Source of the DNA: an uncultured Erythrobacter sp.
GTDB lineage: Bacteria; Pseudomonadota; Alphaproteobacteria; Sphingomonadales; Sphingomonadaceae
Direction: 5' to 3'
Assembly: GCA_913055155.1 (NCBI GenBank)
Contig: CAJXJR010000005.1
Span: 1-64,000 of the forward strand
Length of the DNA: 64,000 nucleotides
Shown: piece by piece, positions 37,638-64,000 of the stretch
How positions within the stretch are numbered: position 1 is the first letter of the stretch
Layout of the letters: each line of letters begins with the position of its first letter
The notes under the pieces: generated by a model
The model's database searches: none
Seen by the model: the letters and a program-made list of their open reading frames with translations, nothing else
What the model was told of the DNA's origin: nothing
Position numbers and translations under genes: made by a program

Positions 37638-37711
37638 TGGAGCGGGTAGCGGGAATCGAACCCGCATAACCAGCTTGGAAGGCTGGGGCTTTACCACTAA
37701 GCTATACCCGC
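37638..37711 (-). tRNA. tRNA-Gly (anticodon TCC)
   Basis: The minus strand folds as a full cloverleaf: acceptor GCGGGTA/TACCCGC, D arm with GTGGTAAA, anticodon stem CCAGC/GCTGG around CTTCCAA (TCC), T arm CGGGTTCGATTCCCG, discriminator T and encoded CCA (37638-37640). The length is 74 bases with CCA. Confidence 0.96.
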
Positions 37712-51114: not shown

Positions 51115-52689
51115 TCAGCGCGGCAGGTGCGCGAAGTCGACTGCGGCAATCGAATCGAGAACGGCGGCGCGCATCGCCCGCGCATCGTCCAGGCTCAGCC
51201 CACGGAACGACAGCCGCCCGCCTGCCAGGCCAAAGCGCAAGGTGCAGTACCCGCGCCTGCGTGCCAGCGGCCCCTGTGCGATCTCGACCGAATGCAGCTT
51301 TACCCGGTTGGCGATCTGCCAGCGCGGCGCCAGCCAGCCCACGCGGCTCATCACCTGTTGCGGATCCAGCGCATGACGCACGAAGCGCCAGAGGAAATAC
51401 TCGCCGACCACCAGCACCCCGGCCAGCGCCGCCAGCAGCAGGCCGACCAGGGTATAGCCCAGCACGATAGCTGCCATTGCCGCCGCGCCCGGAACCAGCG
51501 CCTGCAACACTGCCCGGTCAAAGTAATAGTCGGCGCTGGCGCGGTGCCAGTCCGCACTTTCGCCGGGCAGGGTAAAGCCCGCTTCGCGCGCAATCGGTGC
51601 AATCTCTTCCATCTTCGCAAAGGGCGCGACGTCGTGGTTGGCGCTGCCCGCATCCTGCGCCAGGCTGATGAAAGACAGGCCATACCAGCCGAACCGGCGA
51701 CGGATTATCCCGGTTTTCAGCACCAGGGCCTGCACGCGGTGGACGGGCATCACCACGTCGGTCCTGGTCAGCAGGCCGCGGCGCCTGCGAAAGCCCTTGG
51801 CCGTGCGGTCCAGCCGGAATTGCCAATCCTGTACGAAGGTGCGCACCACGCCCGAAGCCATGCCCACCACCACCACGGCGACAACGGCATAGGCAATGGC
51901 GGCGATCTGCGCGACGAGGGTGTACCCGGCCAGCGCGTCGCCCGCCTGGGCAATCGTGTCCTGCCGGAACAGGTCCGCCAGGTAATCCCACAGGTCGAAC
52001 GGCAGCAGGAACTCGAACTGCTGCAGCGCGCCGATCAAGACGGCGAATACCACCAGCGAGAAGTTGAACAGGCCGAATACGAACAGTCGCCTGGTATCCA
52101 TCGCGAACAGCGTTTCGCCAGTCGGCTCCGCAGCGGGTTCGCCCGCTTCGCCTGCTGCGGCAACGGCAGGCGCGGCGGTCTCGCCTTCCACTAGGGCCCG
52201 CACCGTTTCGCGCAGCTTCTCGCCTTCGGCTTCGGAAACGTAGGAGAGCTTCAGCTCCTCCTTGCCGCCGGCGCCGGTTTCGAACTTCACTTCGACCAGG
52301 CCCAGCAGGCGCGGAATCAGCTTCTGTTCGAGGCTGACATCCTGGATTCGCTCGTACGGGACAGAGCGCGCCTGGCGGCTGAGGATGCCCTGCTCCACCC
52401 GCACGTCGGCCTCGCCCACGCGGTAACGCAGCCGCACCCAGCCAAGCCATGCGCCCAGCAGGTTGACACCGATGATCACGACCAGAACCGGAATGATCCA
52501 CGGCGCGATCTCGGCAAACTTTTCCGAGTCCTGCGTGCCTGCGCCAAAGATCACGAAAGCCGCAGGCACGATCGCGCTGCCCAGCGTGCGCAGCATCTGC
52601 ACAGCCATCGACAGCGGGTTCACCCGCAGCCACTCGTGCATTTCCACCTCCGGCGTGGAGGCGTTGTCCGTAGCGTCCGCTTCGCTCAC
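51115..52689 (-). CDS. Membrane protein with repeated bacterial PH (bPH2) domains
   Basis: This 524-residue protein alternates membrane segment pairs (about residues 30-80, 205-280 and 390-430) with soluble bPH2 domains. The repeats are recognisable by VRVEQGILSRQARSVPYERI near residue 97, RRGLLTRTDVVMPVHRVQAL near 305 and RVKLHSVEIAQGPLARRRG near 468. It corresponds to the larger partner of YdbS/YdbT-type pairs, which are linked to lipid handling or resistance but whose mechanism is unknown. Its start overlaps the end of the smaller PH gene (ATGA). Confidence 0.85.
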   Translation of the reverse strand: MSEADATDNASTPEVEMHEWLRVNPLSMAVQMLRTLGSAIVPAAFVIFGAGTQDSEKFAEIAPWIIPVLVVIIGVNLLGAWLGWVRLRYRVGEADVRVEQGILSRQARSVPYERIQDVSLEQKLIPRLLGLVEVKFETGAGGKEELKLSYVSEAEGEKLRETVRALVEGETAAPAVAAAGEAGEPAAEPTGETLFAMDTRRLFVFGLFNFSLVVFAVLIGALQQFEFLLPFDLWDYLADLFRQDTIAQAGDALAGYTLVAQIAAIAYAVVAVVVVGMASGVVRTFVQDWQFRLDRTAKGFRRRRGLLTRTDVVMPVHRVQALVLKTGIIRRRFGWYGLSFISLAQDAGSANHDVAPFAKMEEIAPIAREAGFTLPGESADWHRASADYYFDRAVLQALVPGAAAMAAIVLGYTLVGLLLAALAGVLVVGEYFLWRFVRHALDPQQVMSRVGWLAPRWQIANRVKLHSVEIAQGPLARRRGYCTLRFGLAGGRLSFRGLSLDDARAMRAAVLDSIAAVDFAHLPR

Positions 52690-53150
52690 AGCGATTCGCG
52701 CTTCACATGGGCGCGAATCGCCTCGCGCATGGTGATCGCATTGTCATGCGCCAGCCCAGGCAGCGTGACGGAGGCATTGTGCGTGCCCGCCGTGTGCAGG
52801 ATCAGCCGGGCAATGCCGAACATGCGCTCCAGCGGGTTCTGCTCCACGTCCAGGTGCTGCACCCGGCTGAACGGCACGACGGTATCGGCGTGGAACATCA
52901 CGCCCTTGACCACGCGCAGCCGGTCGTCGCTGATATGATAGCCGCGACTGCGATAACGTTTCATCGGCAGGTAGAAGACCAGCACCAGCGCCGCAATCGC
53001 CAGCGCGATACCGGGCACCCACGCCGGAACCTCCGCAGCGACATACAGCGCAATGCCGGCGATCAGCAGCGGGATAAGCGCCAGCACCCCCTCGATCCGC
53101 ATGACCGTGGAGTAGGAGGGATCGAGCTTGGTGAGCGGTTCTGTGTCCAT
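52686..53150 (-). CDS. Small bacterial PH-domain membrane protein (YdbS-like)
   Basis: This is a 154-residue protein with two membrane segments (about residues 22-40 and 46-64) followed by one bPH2 domain (YHISDDRLRVVKGVMF, VVPFSRVQHLDVEQNPLER). It pairs with the larger PH protein downstream, as YdbS does with YdbT. Neither ATG 53150 (MDTEPLTKL) nor ATG 53159 has a good ribosome-binding site; 53150 is chosen tentatively. The hairpin element at 53188-53430 lies immediately upstream. Confidence 0.82.
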   Translation of the reverse strand: MDTEPLTKLDPSYSTVMRIEGVLALIPLLIAGIALYVAAEVPAWVPGIALAIAALVLVFYLPMKRYRSRGYHISDDRLRVVKGVMFHADTVVPFSRVQHLDVEQNPLERMFGIARLILHTAGTHNASVTLPGLAHDNAITMREAIRAHVKRESL

Positions 53151-53187
53151 AAGGTGCATTATAGGGGCAACACACTTTCTTTGAAAG

Positions 53188-53430
53188 CCCTCAGGAGCCG
53201 GGCGGGGCGCGTCCGCGCCCCTTGGCTCCTCGTAAAAGCTCGGGCGGGCGTTCGCCCTTGCGGGCTGCTGATCGCAGCCCGTTTCCAGTGCCTTGCTTCT
53301 CGATTGGCGCATCTCTCGGTCGCGACCAGCGACCGAGAGCAAGCGAACGCGCAGCCCGCAGGTGCCCCGAAATGAAGGCGAAGCCGAATGAAGGGAATAG
53401 CACCGAGGACGTTTTCGCGGAGGCGAAAAC
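53188..53430 (+). repeat. Structured intergenic repeat element, copy A
   Basis: This copy has three conserved hairpins. H1 (53194-53229) has outer stem GGAGCC/GGCTCC and inner GGGGCGC/GCGCCCC around GTCC. After a variable middle of 83 bases with two further hairpins comes H2 (53313-53339), an 11-bp stem CTCTCGGTCGC around GACCA. A conserved single-stranded stretch (GCAGGTGCC, then GAATAGCACCGAGGAC at 53395-53410) leads to H3 (53411-53430), GTTTTCGC/GCGAAAAC around GGAG. Orientation is arbitrary. It lies between tRNA-Thr and the small PH gene. See copy B at 62666-63010. Confidence 0.85.
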
Positions 53431-53442
53431 GAAAAGCAAAAA

Positions 53443-53517
53443 TGGTGCTGCTGGGGAGGATTGAACTCCCGGCCTCACCCTTACCAAGGGTGCGCTCTAC
53501 CACTGAGCTACAGCAGC
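53443..53517 (-). tRNA. tRNA-Thr (anticodon GGT)
   Basis: The minus strand folds as a cloverleaf: acceptor GCTGCTG/CAGCAGC, D arm with CAGTGGTAGAGC, anticodon stem CACCC/GGGTG around TTGGTAA (GGT), T arm CGGGAGTTCAATCCTCC (allowing the usual mismatch), discriminator A and encoded CCA (53443-53445). A T-rich stretch follows its 3' end. Confidence 0.96.
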
Positions 53518-53561
53518 ATCCGGGCCCGAAGGCGAAACAGGTGTCGCCGGGCAGGCGCGCG

Positions 53562-53589
53562 CTATTGTCGCCAGCTACGCGAAAGTCAA
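53562..53589 (-). promoter_or_regulatory. tRNA-Thr promoter
   Basis: The minus strand has TTGACT, a 16-base spacer and CAATAG, followed by a GC-rich discriminator (GCGCGC). Initiation near 53555 gives about 38 bases of 5' leader before the tRNA. The GC-rich start region is typical of stable-RNA promoters under stringent control. Confidence 0.6.
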
Positions 53590-53633
53590 GCCAAGCTTGA
53601 GTGAAGGCGCGCCTTGCGCCAATTATGTGGCCC

Positions 53634-53789
53634 ATGAGCAAGGATTTGTCCCGCGAAGAACGCCTCGCCGCGCAGCTGCGCGCGAACCTGAAACGGCGCA
53701 AGGCGCAAAAGCGGGCGATGGCGCCCGCCGCCGACCCCGGCGGGGACGCCGATTCGCAAGACCTTTCCAATCGCGCCGACGAGGGCTAG
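53634..53789 (+). CDS. Small basic conserved-type protein upstream of gpmA
   Basis: I do not recognise a named family. The 51-residue product begins [20 protein letters not shown] and continues with a strongly basic, probably helical segment (RRKAQKRA), ending in an acidic tail. Such small proteins with the [15 protein letters not shown] pattern are familiar to me from sphingomonad genomes; a nucleic-acid-binding role is only a guess. ATG 53634 is chosen over ATG 53625 and the open codons further upstream. It precedes gpmA by 37 bases and may share its transcript. Confidence 0.65.
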
Positions 53790-62224: not shown

Positions 62225-62632
62225 ATGACCAAGATCACCAGCGCTATCATCGCCAGCGCCGCCGCGCTTGCCCTCACCGCTTGTGGCGGCATCAACATCG
62301 CGCGCGAGCGGCCGGACGAGTTCGCCGTGCAGCGCCAGGCACCGCTGGTGATCCCGCCCGATTTCCACCTTGTCCCGCCTGCACCCGGCGCCCCGCGCCC
62401 GGCCGAAGGCACCGCCTCGCAGCAGGCGCTGGAAGCCCTGTTCGGCGGCAGCGCCCCGCGCAGCGATATCGAGACCAGCGCGCTCGACCAGGCCGGCGAC
62501 GCCGCCCCGGGCATCCGTTCGGCCATCGGCGATGCGCAGACCTATACCGTGGACAAGGGCACCGCGACGCAGGCGATCATCGCTGCGCCGGAAGGTGACG
62601 GCCAGGCCGCGCGCGTGGTCATTCCCGGTTGA
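62225..62632 (+). CDS. DUF3035-family lipoprotein (BamF-type)
   Basis: This 135-residue lipoprotein has a signal peptide with LTAC (Cys20) and a Pro-rich core (DEFAVQRQAPLVIPPDFHLV), the hallmark of DUF3035. Proteins of this family in Caulobacter are subunits of the outer-membrane beta-barrel assembly machine (BamF). The assignment here rests on the motif and on its usual position after lspA. It ends the plus-strand operon, followed by the structured element. Confidence 0.82.
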   Translation: MTKITSAIIASAAALALTACGGINIARERPDEFAVQRQAPLVIPPDFHLVPPAPGAPRPAEGTASQQALEALFGGSAPRSDIETSALDQAGDAAPGIRSAIGDAQTYTVDKGTATQAIIAAPEGDGQAARVVIPG

Positions 62633-62665
62633 GACCGGGAATAACCACGCTTCATTTGTTTTAGT

Positions 62666-63010
62666 CCCTCAAGCGCCGGGCGCAGCGCGTCCGCGCTGCT
62701 TGGCTTTCGGCCTACCGGCCGGCCCGCAGTCGCGGGCTGTCGGTCGCTTGTCGCGACCGAGACTTTCGCAAAACTCCAATGAATGCGCTGAAAACGGTCG
62801 GCGCCTAGCCGATCGCAAGGGCGAACGGCCGCCCATAGTAACAGGCTGTCGTCGCCTTTCAGGCGCCGATACTTGCGCGAATTTCGAATTGGCGCGCTAT
62901 TCTCGGTCGCGACCAGCGACCGACCGAGCGCGAACGCGCGAGCCGCAGGTGCCGCGCAGTCCGAAGGACGGAGCGAATAGCACCGAGGACGCACCCACGG
63001 AGGTGGGCGC
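62666..63010 (+). repeat. Structured intergenic repeat element, copy B
   Basis: This copy fills the convergent gap between the DUF3035 and CorC genes. H1 (inner stem 62682-62699) is GCAGCGC/GCGCTGC around the same GTCC loop as in copy A. The middle is longer (about 198 bases) and holds a hairpin TCGGTCGC/GCGACCGA at 62740-62760. H2 (62904-62922) is CGGTCGC/GCGACCG around GACCA. GAATAGCACCGAGGAC (62975-62990) is identical to copy A, and H3 (62991-63010) is GCACCCAC/GTGGGCGC around GGAG, one mismatch. Confidence 0.85.
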
Positions 63011-63020
63011 ATGAAACAAA

Positions 63021-64000
63021 CTATTCCCGGCTCACCAGCAATTTATCGATCTTGCGGCCGTCCATGTCGACCACCTCGAACCGCCAGCCCTGGTCGTGGA
63101 AGTGTTCACCCTCCGCAGGCAGGTGCTTGAGCACGAACAGCGCGTAACCGGCGGCGGTCGCGAATTCCTTGTTCTCGGGGAAGTCGATATCCAGCCGCTC
63201 GGCCAGGGCATCGGCGGCCAGCGCGCCGGAGACGAGGAAGCTGCCATCCTCGCGCTCGGTGAACATCGGCGTATCGCCTTCGTCCTGGTGGCTGGCGAAG
63301 TCCCCGGCGATGGCAGAGAGCAGGTCTGCCGTCGTCACGATGCCGTCGAGGTGGCCGTACTCGTCGTGCACCATGGCCATGCCGGTGCCCGATTGCTGCA
63401 GCACCCGCAACGCGTCCATCGCATCGAGCTGGTCGGGCAGCACCTCGCTCTTGCGAATCAGGTCGGCCAGCACCACCGGCTGCCCGCCCACCAGCAGTGC
63501 CAGCACTTCGCGCACCTTCACCACGCCCAGCACCTTGTCGGGCGAGCTTTCTGCCACCGGCAGCAGCGAGTGCGGGGATGCCGCGATGGTGGCGCGGATC
63601 TGCTCCTCGTCGGCATCCGCGTCCAGCCAGTCCACCTCGGTACGCGGTGTCATCAGTTCGCGCACCGGCCTGTCGGCCAGCCGCATGATGCCGGAAAGGA
63701 TGGCGCGCTCCTGCTCCTCGATCACGCCGGTGCGCGTGGCATCGGCGAAGATCATCTGCAGTTCCTCCGCCGTCAGGCGATGGTCGCCCTTGTTGCGGAT
63801 GCCCATCGCCGACAGCAGCAGGCTGGACGAAGCATCGAGCAGCCACACGAACGGTGCCGCCACCCTGGCCAGCAGCGCCATGGGCCGCGCCATGACGATG
63901 GAAATCGGCGTTGCCGCGCGCAAGGCCAGTTGCTTGGGCACCAGTTCGCCCACCACCAGGCTGAAGAACGTGGTGAGGCCGATGACCAGCGTGAAACCGA
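63021..64000 (-). CDS. CorC/hemolysin-family membrane protein (5' end outside window)
   Basis: The frame is open to the window edge, so the N terminus is missing. What is visible is the end of a CNNM membrane domain (VVGELVPKQLALRAATPISI and a following hydrophobic segment), two CBS domains (RELMTPRTEVDWLD and KVLGVVKVREVL to DGIVTTADLLSAI), and a C-terminal CorC/HlyC domain. Members are linked to Mg or Co transport or efflux, and the CBS pair likely binds adenine nucleotides. The name hemolysin is historical. It converges on the DUF3035 gene. Confidence 0.9.
   Translation of the reverse strand, partial: GFTLVIGLTTFFSLVVGELVPKQLALRAATPISIVMARPMALLARVAAPFVWLLDASSSLLLSAMGIRNKGDHRLTAEELQMIFADATRTGVIEEQERAILSGIMRLADRPVRELMTPRTEVDWLDADADEEQIRATIAASPHSLLPVAESSPDKVLGVVKVREVLALLVGGQPVVLADLIRKSEVLPDQLDAMDALRVLQQSGTGMAMVHDEYGHLDGIVTTADLLSAIAGDFASHQDEGDTPMFTEREDGSFLVSGALAADALAERLDIDFPENKEFATAAGYALFVLKHLPAEGEHFHDQGWRFEVVDMDGRKIDKLLVSRE

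Follow-up and report, generated by a model that had tools for sequence, protein, structure and literature searches.

The biology of REP-like repeats is best known from gammaproteobacteria with RAYTs, while mosaic palindromic intergenic repeats of alphaproteobacteria are represented by the RIME and ABC elements of rhizobia. The family analyzed here resembles RIME and ABC by description, all being mosaic palindromic intergenic repeats of alphaproteobacteria. According to the accessible parts of the literature, it also resembles the GTAG REPs, BIMEs and REPINs that occur with a RAYT, which are likewise intergenic inverted palindromes placed close behind stop codons in mosaics. However, the GTAG tag is absent here, the outer hairpin H1 being flanked by GCCGGGCG/CTTGGC and GAGGAC/CGAAAA, and a Y1 transposase (PF01797) is absent from 37 of 40 genomes of the genus, including the genome studied, and present in the other three. 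Given this genome has no Y1 transposase, a RAYT-driven REPIN was rejected.

Within the same bacterial class, the CGTC REPs (Di Nocera 2013, PMC3733652) are described in the accessible text as repeats at gene 3' ends and in convergent regions, with no dedicated transposase. Their unit is a single hairpin of 20–40 bp, with a CGTC (or TGTC/CCTC) tag, an 8–9 bp stem with an AT start, a loop of 4–5 nt and a CCA-like tail, and these units form head-to-head hetero- and homodimers with complementary stem variation and, in some cases, spacers of similar length and different sequence. As far as that text goes, the present family is alike in bacterial class, placement at gene 3' ends, dimers, stem variation, spacer lengths and the lack of an own transposase, and is thus the same kind of thing; nonetheless, the defining tag, stem start and tail are absent, as the end stems start with G-C and neither the CGTC tag nor the CCA tail is present, and the arms are about 105 nt long, with about four hairpins, loops GTCC/ATCC and GGAG/GGAT, and T-rich tips. 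The strict CGTC/TGTC motif was found just once in the loci examined (CGTCATTCCCGCGTAGGCGGGAATCCA in L138). Hence, we consider it very unlikely that the family belongs, in diverged form, to the CGTC REP superfamily known in alphaproteobacteria.

The window, i.e., the whole 64-kb stretch of DNA that was analyzed, contains two copies of the element, A and B. Over 1.7–3.9 kb, the genomes G013, G029 and G010 of its genus have sequence identical to records of Aurantiacibacter odishensis, A. rhizosphaerae and A. zhengii, which assigns the window to Aurantiacibacter or its GTDB genus (NCBI family Erythrobacteraceae). When Rfam was applied to it, just two tRNAs reached the gathering threshold, and the low-threshold matches on both copies were far below it. 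A literature text search with the motif strings, the scope of which left most subscription papers outside, returned nothing related by title. In its accessible part, RepRanger (PMC12306157) reports 3,055 REPs for Erythrobacter cryptus and gives no comparable motifs; it also cites E. coli REPs at most 15 nt from a stop codon that are able to lower translation. The accessible part of PMC2267715 names, among alphaproteobacteria, Brucella melitensis and Rickettsia conorii. The original prediction had recognized no described family, which holds within Rfam, the motif-text search and the defining features of GTAG and CGTC REPs. We therefore provisionally regard the family as undescribed as far as searched, with the CGTC REPs set apart by description.

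Anatomy of the element and its two copies in the window

A full element consists of two inverted arms flanking a centre. Read inward from its gene, an arm (about 105 nt, about four hairpins) presents a T-rich tip (TTTGTTT-like), the outer hairpin H1, and then H2, H3 and H4; in the genome studied, tip conservation stops about 14 nt outside CCTCA. Three interchangeable arm types, alpha, beta1 and beta2, occur at the same site. The alpha order is CCTCAAGCGCCGGGCG, a stem of 6–7 pairs, the loop GTCC or ATCC, and CTTGGCT. Beta arms, read outward, present GAGGAC, an 8-bp stem, the loop GGAG or GGAT, and an A-rich tip, and beta1 (GAATAGCACC) is told from beta2 (GTCTAGC) by the block that precedes GAGGAC. 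H4 takes the form of a CGG...CCG hairpin, with a stem of at least five pairs in 39 of 72 neighbor-anchored alpha arms for which pairing was not required, against 10% in shuffles. Both arms were recognized by motif in 16 of the genome's 23 elements, and a single arm in seven.

Copy A begins with an alpha arm (53176–53281, + strand) made of the T-rich tip, CCTCAGGAGCCGGGCG, H1 and the chain H2–H4, within which the alpha covariance model R1 matches 53189–53231. Its H1 (53204–53221, +), supported by the sequence and the family pair counts, has the stem GGGGCGC/GCGCCCC and the loop GTCC, and the H4 script places its left H4 hairpin, CGGGCTGC TGATC GCAGCCCG, at 53261–53281 (+). The 35-nt centre (53282–53316), whose locus-specific core occurs a single time in the genome when one mismatch is allowed, is followed on the − strand by the right H4 hairpin, CGGTCGC GACCA GCGACCG (53317–53335, by the same script), and by an inward-facing beta1 arm (53336–53440) with the constant block GAATAGCACCGAGGAC at 53395–53410, H1 at 53411–53430 (loop GGAG) and an A-rich tip. 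The whole lies between a tRNA-Thr (GGT; 53443–53517, −; Rfam), with the beta1 H1 starting 12 nt past the tRNA end, and a same-strand gene of 154 aa (52686–53150, −) that starts with MDTEPLTKLD, lies downstream of copy A and served as the anchor of locus A. A promoter-like TTCAAA-16-TATAAT (53158–53185, −) adjoins the alpha tip, and a few nt separate its end from the ATG of the MDTEP gene; by eye, relatives also have a TATA-like block ahead of the start. The second tRNA gene of the window is at 37641–37711 (−).

Copy B (62654–63020) is a composite of one full-centred element and one partial element. Its alpha arm (62654–62759, +; H1 at 62682–62699, H4 at 62741–62759) has its tip about 22 nt past the stop codon that ends an upstream gene (62235–62632, +; start set by eye), the product of which we take to resemble a DUF3035-type lipoprotein. 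The first 35-nt centre (62760–62794), with a core for which the genome likewise has one site when a mismatch is allowed, is followed by the truncated reverse arm of the first element, read from the sequence as H4' and H3' (62795–62834, −), and by the partial second element, cut by eye, with an alternative H4 (GTCGTCGCCTTTCAGGCGCCGA) and a second centre (62849–62903). The last part is a beta1 arm (62904–63020, −; H4 at 62904–62922, GAATAGCACCGAGGAC at 62975–62990, H1 at 62991–63010) that ends at a convergent gene taken from the ORF list (63021–63956, −), the anchor of locus B and presumably a CBS-domain/CorC-like gene.

In this genome, divergent stems (identity 0.578–0.628) stand beside conserved unpaired arm parts (0.845–0.915). 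The two arms of one element also differ, as with the left H4 CGGGCTGC and the right H4 CGGTCGC of copy A; one long rod formed from both arms was thus rejected, and local hairpins are what is kept. A coding origin was rejected by eye, since several overlapping ORFs in different frames cross the element. Alpha hairpins also occur two to three in a row, about 72–88 nt apart and often with differing loops (GTCC, ATCC, CTCC; L106, L094, L104). In clusters of other alphaproteobacteria (G106, G259, L058, L111), alpha hairpins follow one another at about 70–130 nt and all face the same way, whereas the window's genus has inverted pairs.

When the own centres are delimited by eye, from CCG to CGG, 17 of 19 measure 35 nt; by script, six of seven do. 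Across all loci examined, H4-pair spacing is 30–36 nt in 20 of the 24 pairs spaced 15–90 nt, a count for which H4s were preselected as palindromes and one element was counted twice (L055, L162). This near-constant length disfavors independent arms with leftover DNA between them. Centre positions 8–10 pair with positions 26–28 in 13–16 of 17 copies. The inner 15-nt core, in comparison with the unpaired arm parts, has an ungapped identity between copies of only 0.36; with gaps, the identity is 0.39 versus 0.30 for shuffles, which suggests a faint common pattern persists. Locus B cores across eight genus members are no more alike than shuffles (0.264 versus 0.245), and the centres are inherited almost unchanged within one pair of relatives, G012 and A. 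zhengii.

The element may be bipartite, i.e., interchangeable hairpin-chain arms may bracket a core of kept length (about 35 nt) and free, locus-specific sequence, but we rate this reading as improbable. If it is true, arms and core change by separate routes, or a machine that recognizes single strands measures the core; to our knowledge, such a core-measuring layout is unlike any known REP system. The near-fixed length, locus specificity and poor core conservation would also suit a trans-acting structured RNA using the 35-nt centre as a guide. The two cores tested, out of 19, have no second genome site at up to one mismatch, and we give this proposal hardly any credence.

Pairing, covariation and mismatches in the stems

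The comparison of the two window copies gave rise to the proposal that pairing is kept while the sequence drifts. All strings that the original prediction had listed as shared were found in both the 53188–53430 and the 62666–63010 regions. In alpha H1, GGGGCGC(GTCC)GCGCCCC at 53204–53221 becomes GCAGCGC(GTCC)GCGCTGC at 62682–62699, with the two compensated pairs that had been described. In the hairpin originally called H3 (the beta1 H1 above), GTTTTCGC(GGAG)GCGAAAAC at 53411–53430 corresponds to GCACCCAC(GGAG)GTGGGCGC at 62991–63010, i.e., four compensated pairs and one A.C break, again as described.

Formal covariation was evaluated on alignments anchored outside the stems, with pair counts that take sequences as independent of kinship. 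For the alpha sample, drawn from the matches listed, exact flanks and loop were demanded and the stem was left free; sets A1 and A2 comprise 52 and 55 of the 109 distinct sequences, with two odd-length sequences omitted. The beta set A3 comprises 53 of 72 anchored sites, given nine with fewer than five pairs were taken for chance anchors and removed, and a further ten were excluded by hand. The seven-pair alpha H1 alignment (52 sequences) presents 97.3% paired cells versus 65.8% when shuffled, and a covariation score of 0.711 versus 0.154; the six-pair alpha H1 alignment (55 sequences) presents 96.7% versus 69.9%, and a score of 0.587 versus 0.143; and the beta H1 alignment (53 sequences) presents 97.9% versus 67.2%, and a score of 0.743 versus 0.171. 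With all 72 anchored beta sites considered, chance anchors included, 512 of 576 pairs are formed versus 337 when shuffled, and controls with a slid partner paired at 27–57%. The count of pairs changed on both sides was not above shuffles in any of the three H1 alignments, nor was the pair-type count in the 55-sequence, six-pair alpha set.

Extra copies with uncompensated stem changes had been named beforehand as evidence against selection on pairing. The main classes are paired (424 of 447 pairs for the main alpha class under looser sampling, versus a shuffled rate of 0.603), but a GCCGGCG alpha subclass of 11 distinct sequences is often unpaired, with 40 of 55 pairs under the same looser sampling versus 0.66 when shuffled. 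Members of this subclass (L198, L202, L219, L222) present T.C stem mismatches and resemble the H2 form CCTCGCATAAGCTCGG.

Orthologous copies in G012 and A. zhengii, the flanks of which are 90–95% identical, allow a direct comparison. The beta2 stem of locus B is GAAGCCGC/GCGGCTTC in one and GCACCTGC/GCAGGTGC in the other, which amounts to three compensated pairs and zero broken ones, and the flank outside this stem is also strongly diverged. One H4 pair of locus A is G-C versus A-T, likewise compensated. Other stems of this pair of genomes present one-sided changes, one of them to a wobble and some to mismatches. Overall, the proposal that pairing is kept while the sequence drifts is borne out by copy number, range, covariation and these compensated orthologous copies. 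Nevertheless, the paired arms could be kept by templated (quasi-palindrome) correction instead of selection.

End-stem mismatches carry information on the strand involved. When oriented along the sense strand of the adjacent gene, 113 distinct end stems (beta stems needing five and alpha stems three Watson-Crick pairs) present 24 A.C, 8 G.T and 19 other mismatches (p = 0.007, the copies not being independent), and H4 stems present no such asymmetry (14 to 13). The excess of A.C over G.T in the end stems favors the opposite strand, i.e., the transcript of the far gene or single-stranded DNA, and partly opposes the simplest RNA model, in which selection acts on the adjacent gene's own mRNA.

Distribution and position at gene ends

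A covariance-model search of the own genome and of relatives had been set beforehand as a test of the original prediction, and further copies are present in both. Against the own 3.1 Mb genome, BLAST of the two copies returned 31 and 49 matches at more than 20 loci, of which 20 stretches were read. With covariance models, 22 alpha candidates were scored and 18 of them matched; for beta, all 24 that were scored matched, and the beta count (at least 24) is hence a lower bound. By both methods, the hairpins recur across the genome far above chance. Hence, both window copies are members of one dispersed repeat family: the "second copy 9 kb away" is real, but it is just one among more than 20 loci, and the span of 53188–53430 is real as well, although copy A extends slightly further, to about 53176–53440.

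Among 289 alphaproteobacterial genomes, 76 have a match to R1 at an E-value of 0.01, many of these single and near chance. Below 1e-7 there are 24 genomes from 15 families, and six genomes have at least 22 matches. Named alpha carriers among the matches listed are Azospirillum, Novispirillum, Nitrospirillum, Zavarzinia, Roseococcus, Elioraea and Sphingomonas. The beta model R2 matched two of the 289 genomes, both within the window's genus; given R2 is short and even own copies score an E-value of 7e-5 or worse, it would overlook beta arms that have diverged. Searched by motif, loci of other Erythrobacteraceae do contain beta arms. Whole-copy BLAST returned matches in the own genome, in 34 of 36 other genomes of the genus, and in three of 24 outside it.

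The elements are dispersed short palindromes that lie mainly behind coding regions and form inverted pairs, as REP/BIME-like repeats do. Of the 23 own elements, 15 are between convergent genes, seven are tandem, and one, copy A, was called divergent and is in fact tandem. Arm tips are at most 25 nt from a called gene 3' end in 25 of 39 cases in the own genome, with some gene-context distances in error where a gene escaped the caller or a tRNA, which it disregards, lies nearby. According to the heuristic ORF caller, three alpha arms out of 13 in the own genome, and 18 out of 105 elsewhere, are inside putative ORFs. The 87 alpha arms outside ORFs in other genomes are convergent (30), tandem (47), divergent (8) or without a second gene (two), and in 57 of the 87 a gene 3' end is on the tip side. 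At L017:1902-2089 of the own genome, 2 nt separate the end of a beta arm from the 3' end of a tRNA-Trp, the second tRNA backed by an arm.

The reading of the element as a REP/BIME-like repeat is supported by the many copies, wide distribution, formal covariation and compensated changes, and the sites in relatives show how it varies. At locus A, a motif-based tRNA anchor is present in 29 of 30 relatives, and an arm hairpin lies 11–33 nt after tRNA-Thr in 19 of these 29 (eight alpha, eight beta1, three beta2); six further relatives have degenerate arms by eye. At locus B, arms are present in 19 of 30 relatives and absent in 11, and the CorC-like side has seven beta2, five beta1 and one alpha. 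Thus, arms of differing types often keep to one position, and the site is the end of a transcription unit, not the stop codon as such. A whole extra beta1 arm is present at an A-rich tip in G012, and A. zhengii has the tip without that arm. In L169, the CorC-like stop of locus B is followed by a short TTGTTTGCAAATCAGG, which looks like an empty site but may instead be what remained when both arms were lost.

Intrinsic terminators are also hairpins at gene 3' ends, but the T-rich tip of this family is before the hairpin, not after it. If the arms were a dedicated terminator module, i.e., the actual terminators of the preceding genes, their position after stop codons, tRNA-Thr and tRNA-Trp and the conserved T-rich tip before alpha would be explained. 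However, H1 has the T-rich tip in front of it and is not followed by a T tract, a terminator scan of the copy A region (52900–53700) found 0 sites, and only some dozens of arms per genome were found among scored candidates, a lower bound. Moreover, 15 of 138 alpha arms are already behind a terminator-like site: 11 of 66 five-pair and two of 59 six-pair arms in other genomes, and two of 13 own arms, with a shuffled rate of 0.003 before five-pair arms. Five-pair arms behind such a site may thus be untranscribed there. We regard a dedicated terminator module as an unlikely explanation.

Mode of spread and significance

The family is likely mobile. A plasmid or phage origin was rejected given copy B has no match in plasmid and phage collections, and no target-site duplication was seen by eye at own copies or in the G012 and A. 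zhengii pair. The family could be a purely selfish folded-DNA repeat, in which a putative single-strand enzyme recognizes tip and H1, and pairing results from the need for a DNA hairpin or from quasi-palindrome correction. Presence or absence and differing arm types at orthologous sites, the inverted T-rich and A-rich tips, the strand asymmetry of end-stem mismatches, and the alpha clusters and arms behind terminators in other genomes are in line with this account. However, the search, which covered the Y1 family, found no transposase in the own genome and one in only three of 40 in the genus; duplicated targets were not seen by eye; arm correction by itself would not account for the fixed loops and the unpaired blocks that stay constant; and 19 of 29 relatives have an arm behind tRNA-Thr. 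The probability of a purely selfish repeat is well short of even.

The reading we prefer, to which we give about an even chance, is that of a new REP/BIME-like family of composite palindromic alphaproteobacterial repeats, here in Aurantiacibacter, whose folded arms would act as 3'-end structures and whose spread would be non-autonomous. The family would be, or would have been, a non-autonomous repeat settling at T-rich 3' ends, and a role as 3'-end structures would be what preserves the folding of its hairpin chains. Such structures may hold off exonucleases and read-through, possibly aiding factor-dependent termination, and the inverted layout would serve both convergent genes. A transcript-end structure fits with pairing that persists although the sequence is free, with loops that stay constant, and with a 3'-end position in both directions. 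Against a 3'-end role stand the A.C excess of the end stems, the five-pair arms of other genomes behind a terminator-like site, the lack of such a site in the scanned copy A region, the 11 of 30 relatives with no arm at locus B, the poorly paired GCCGGCG subclass, and the one-sided changes.

These results extend REP-like biology to a large alphaproteobacterial family that persists or spreads without a recognizable Y1 transposase here. Its fixed loops, covarying stems and arm types that differ at one site, such as behind tRNA-Thr, amount to a natural experiment on what is essential in a REP-like hairpin, and the covariance models make further copies easy to find and test.
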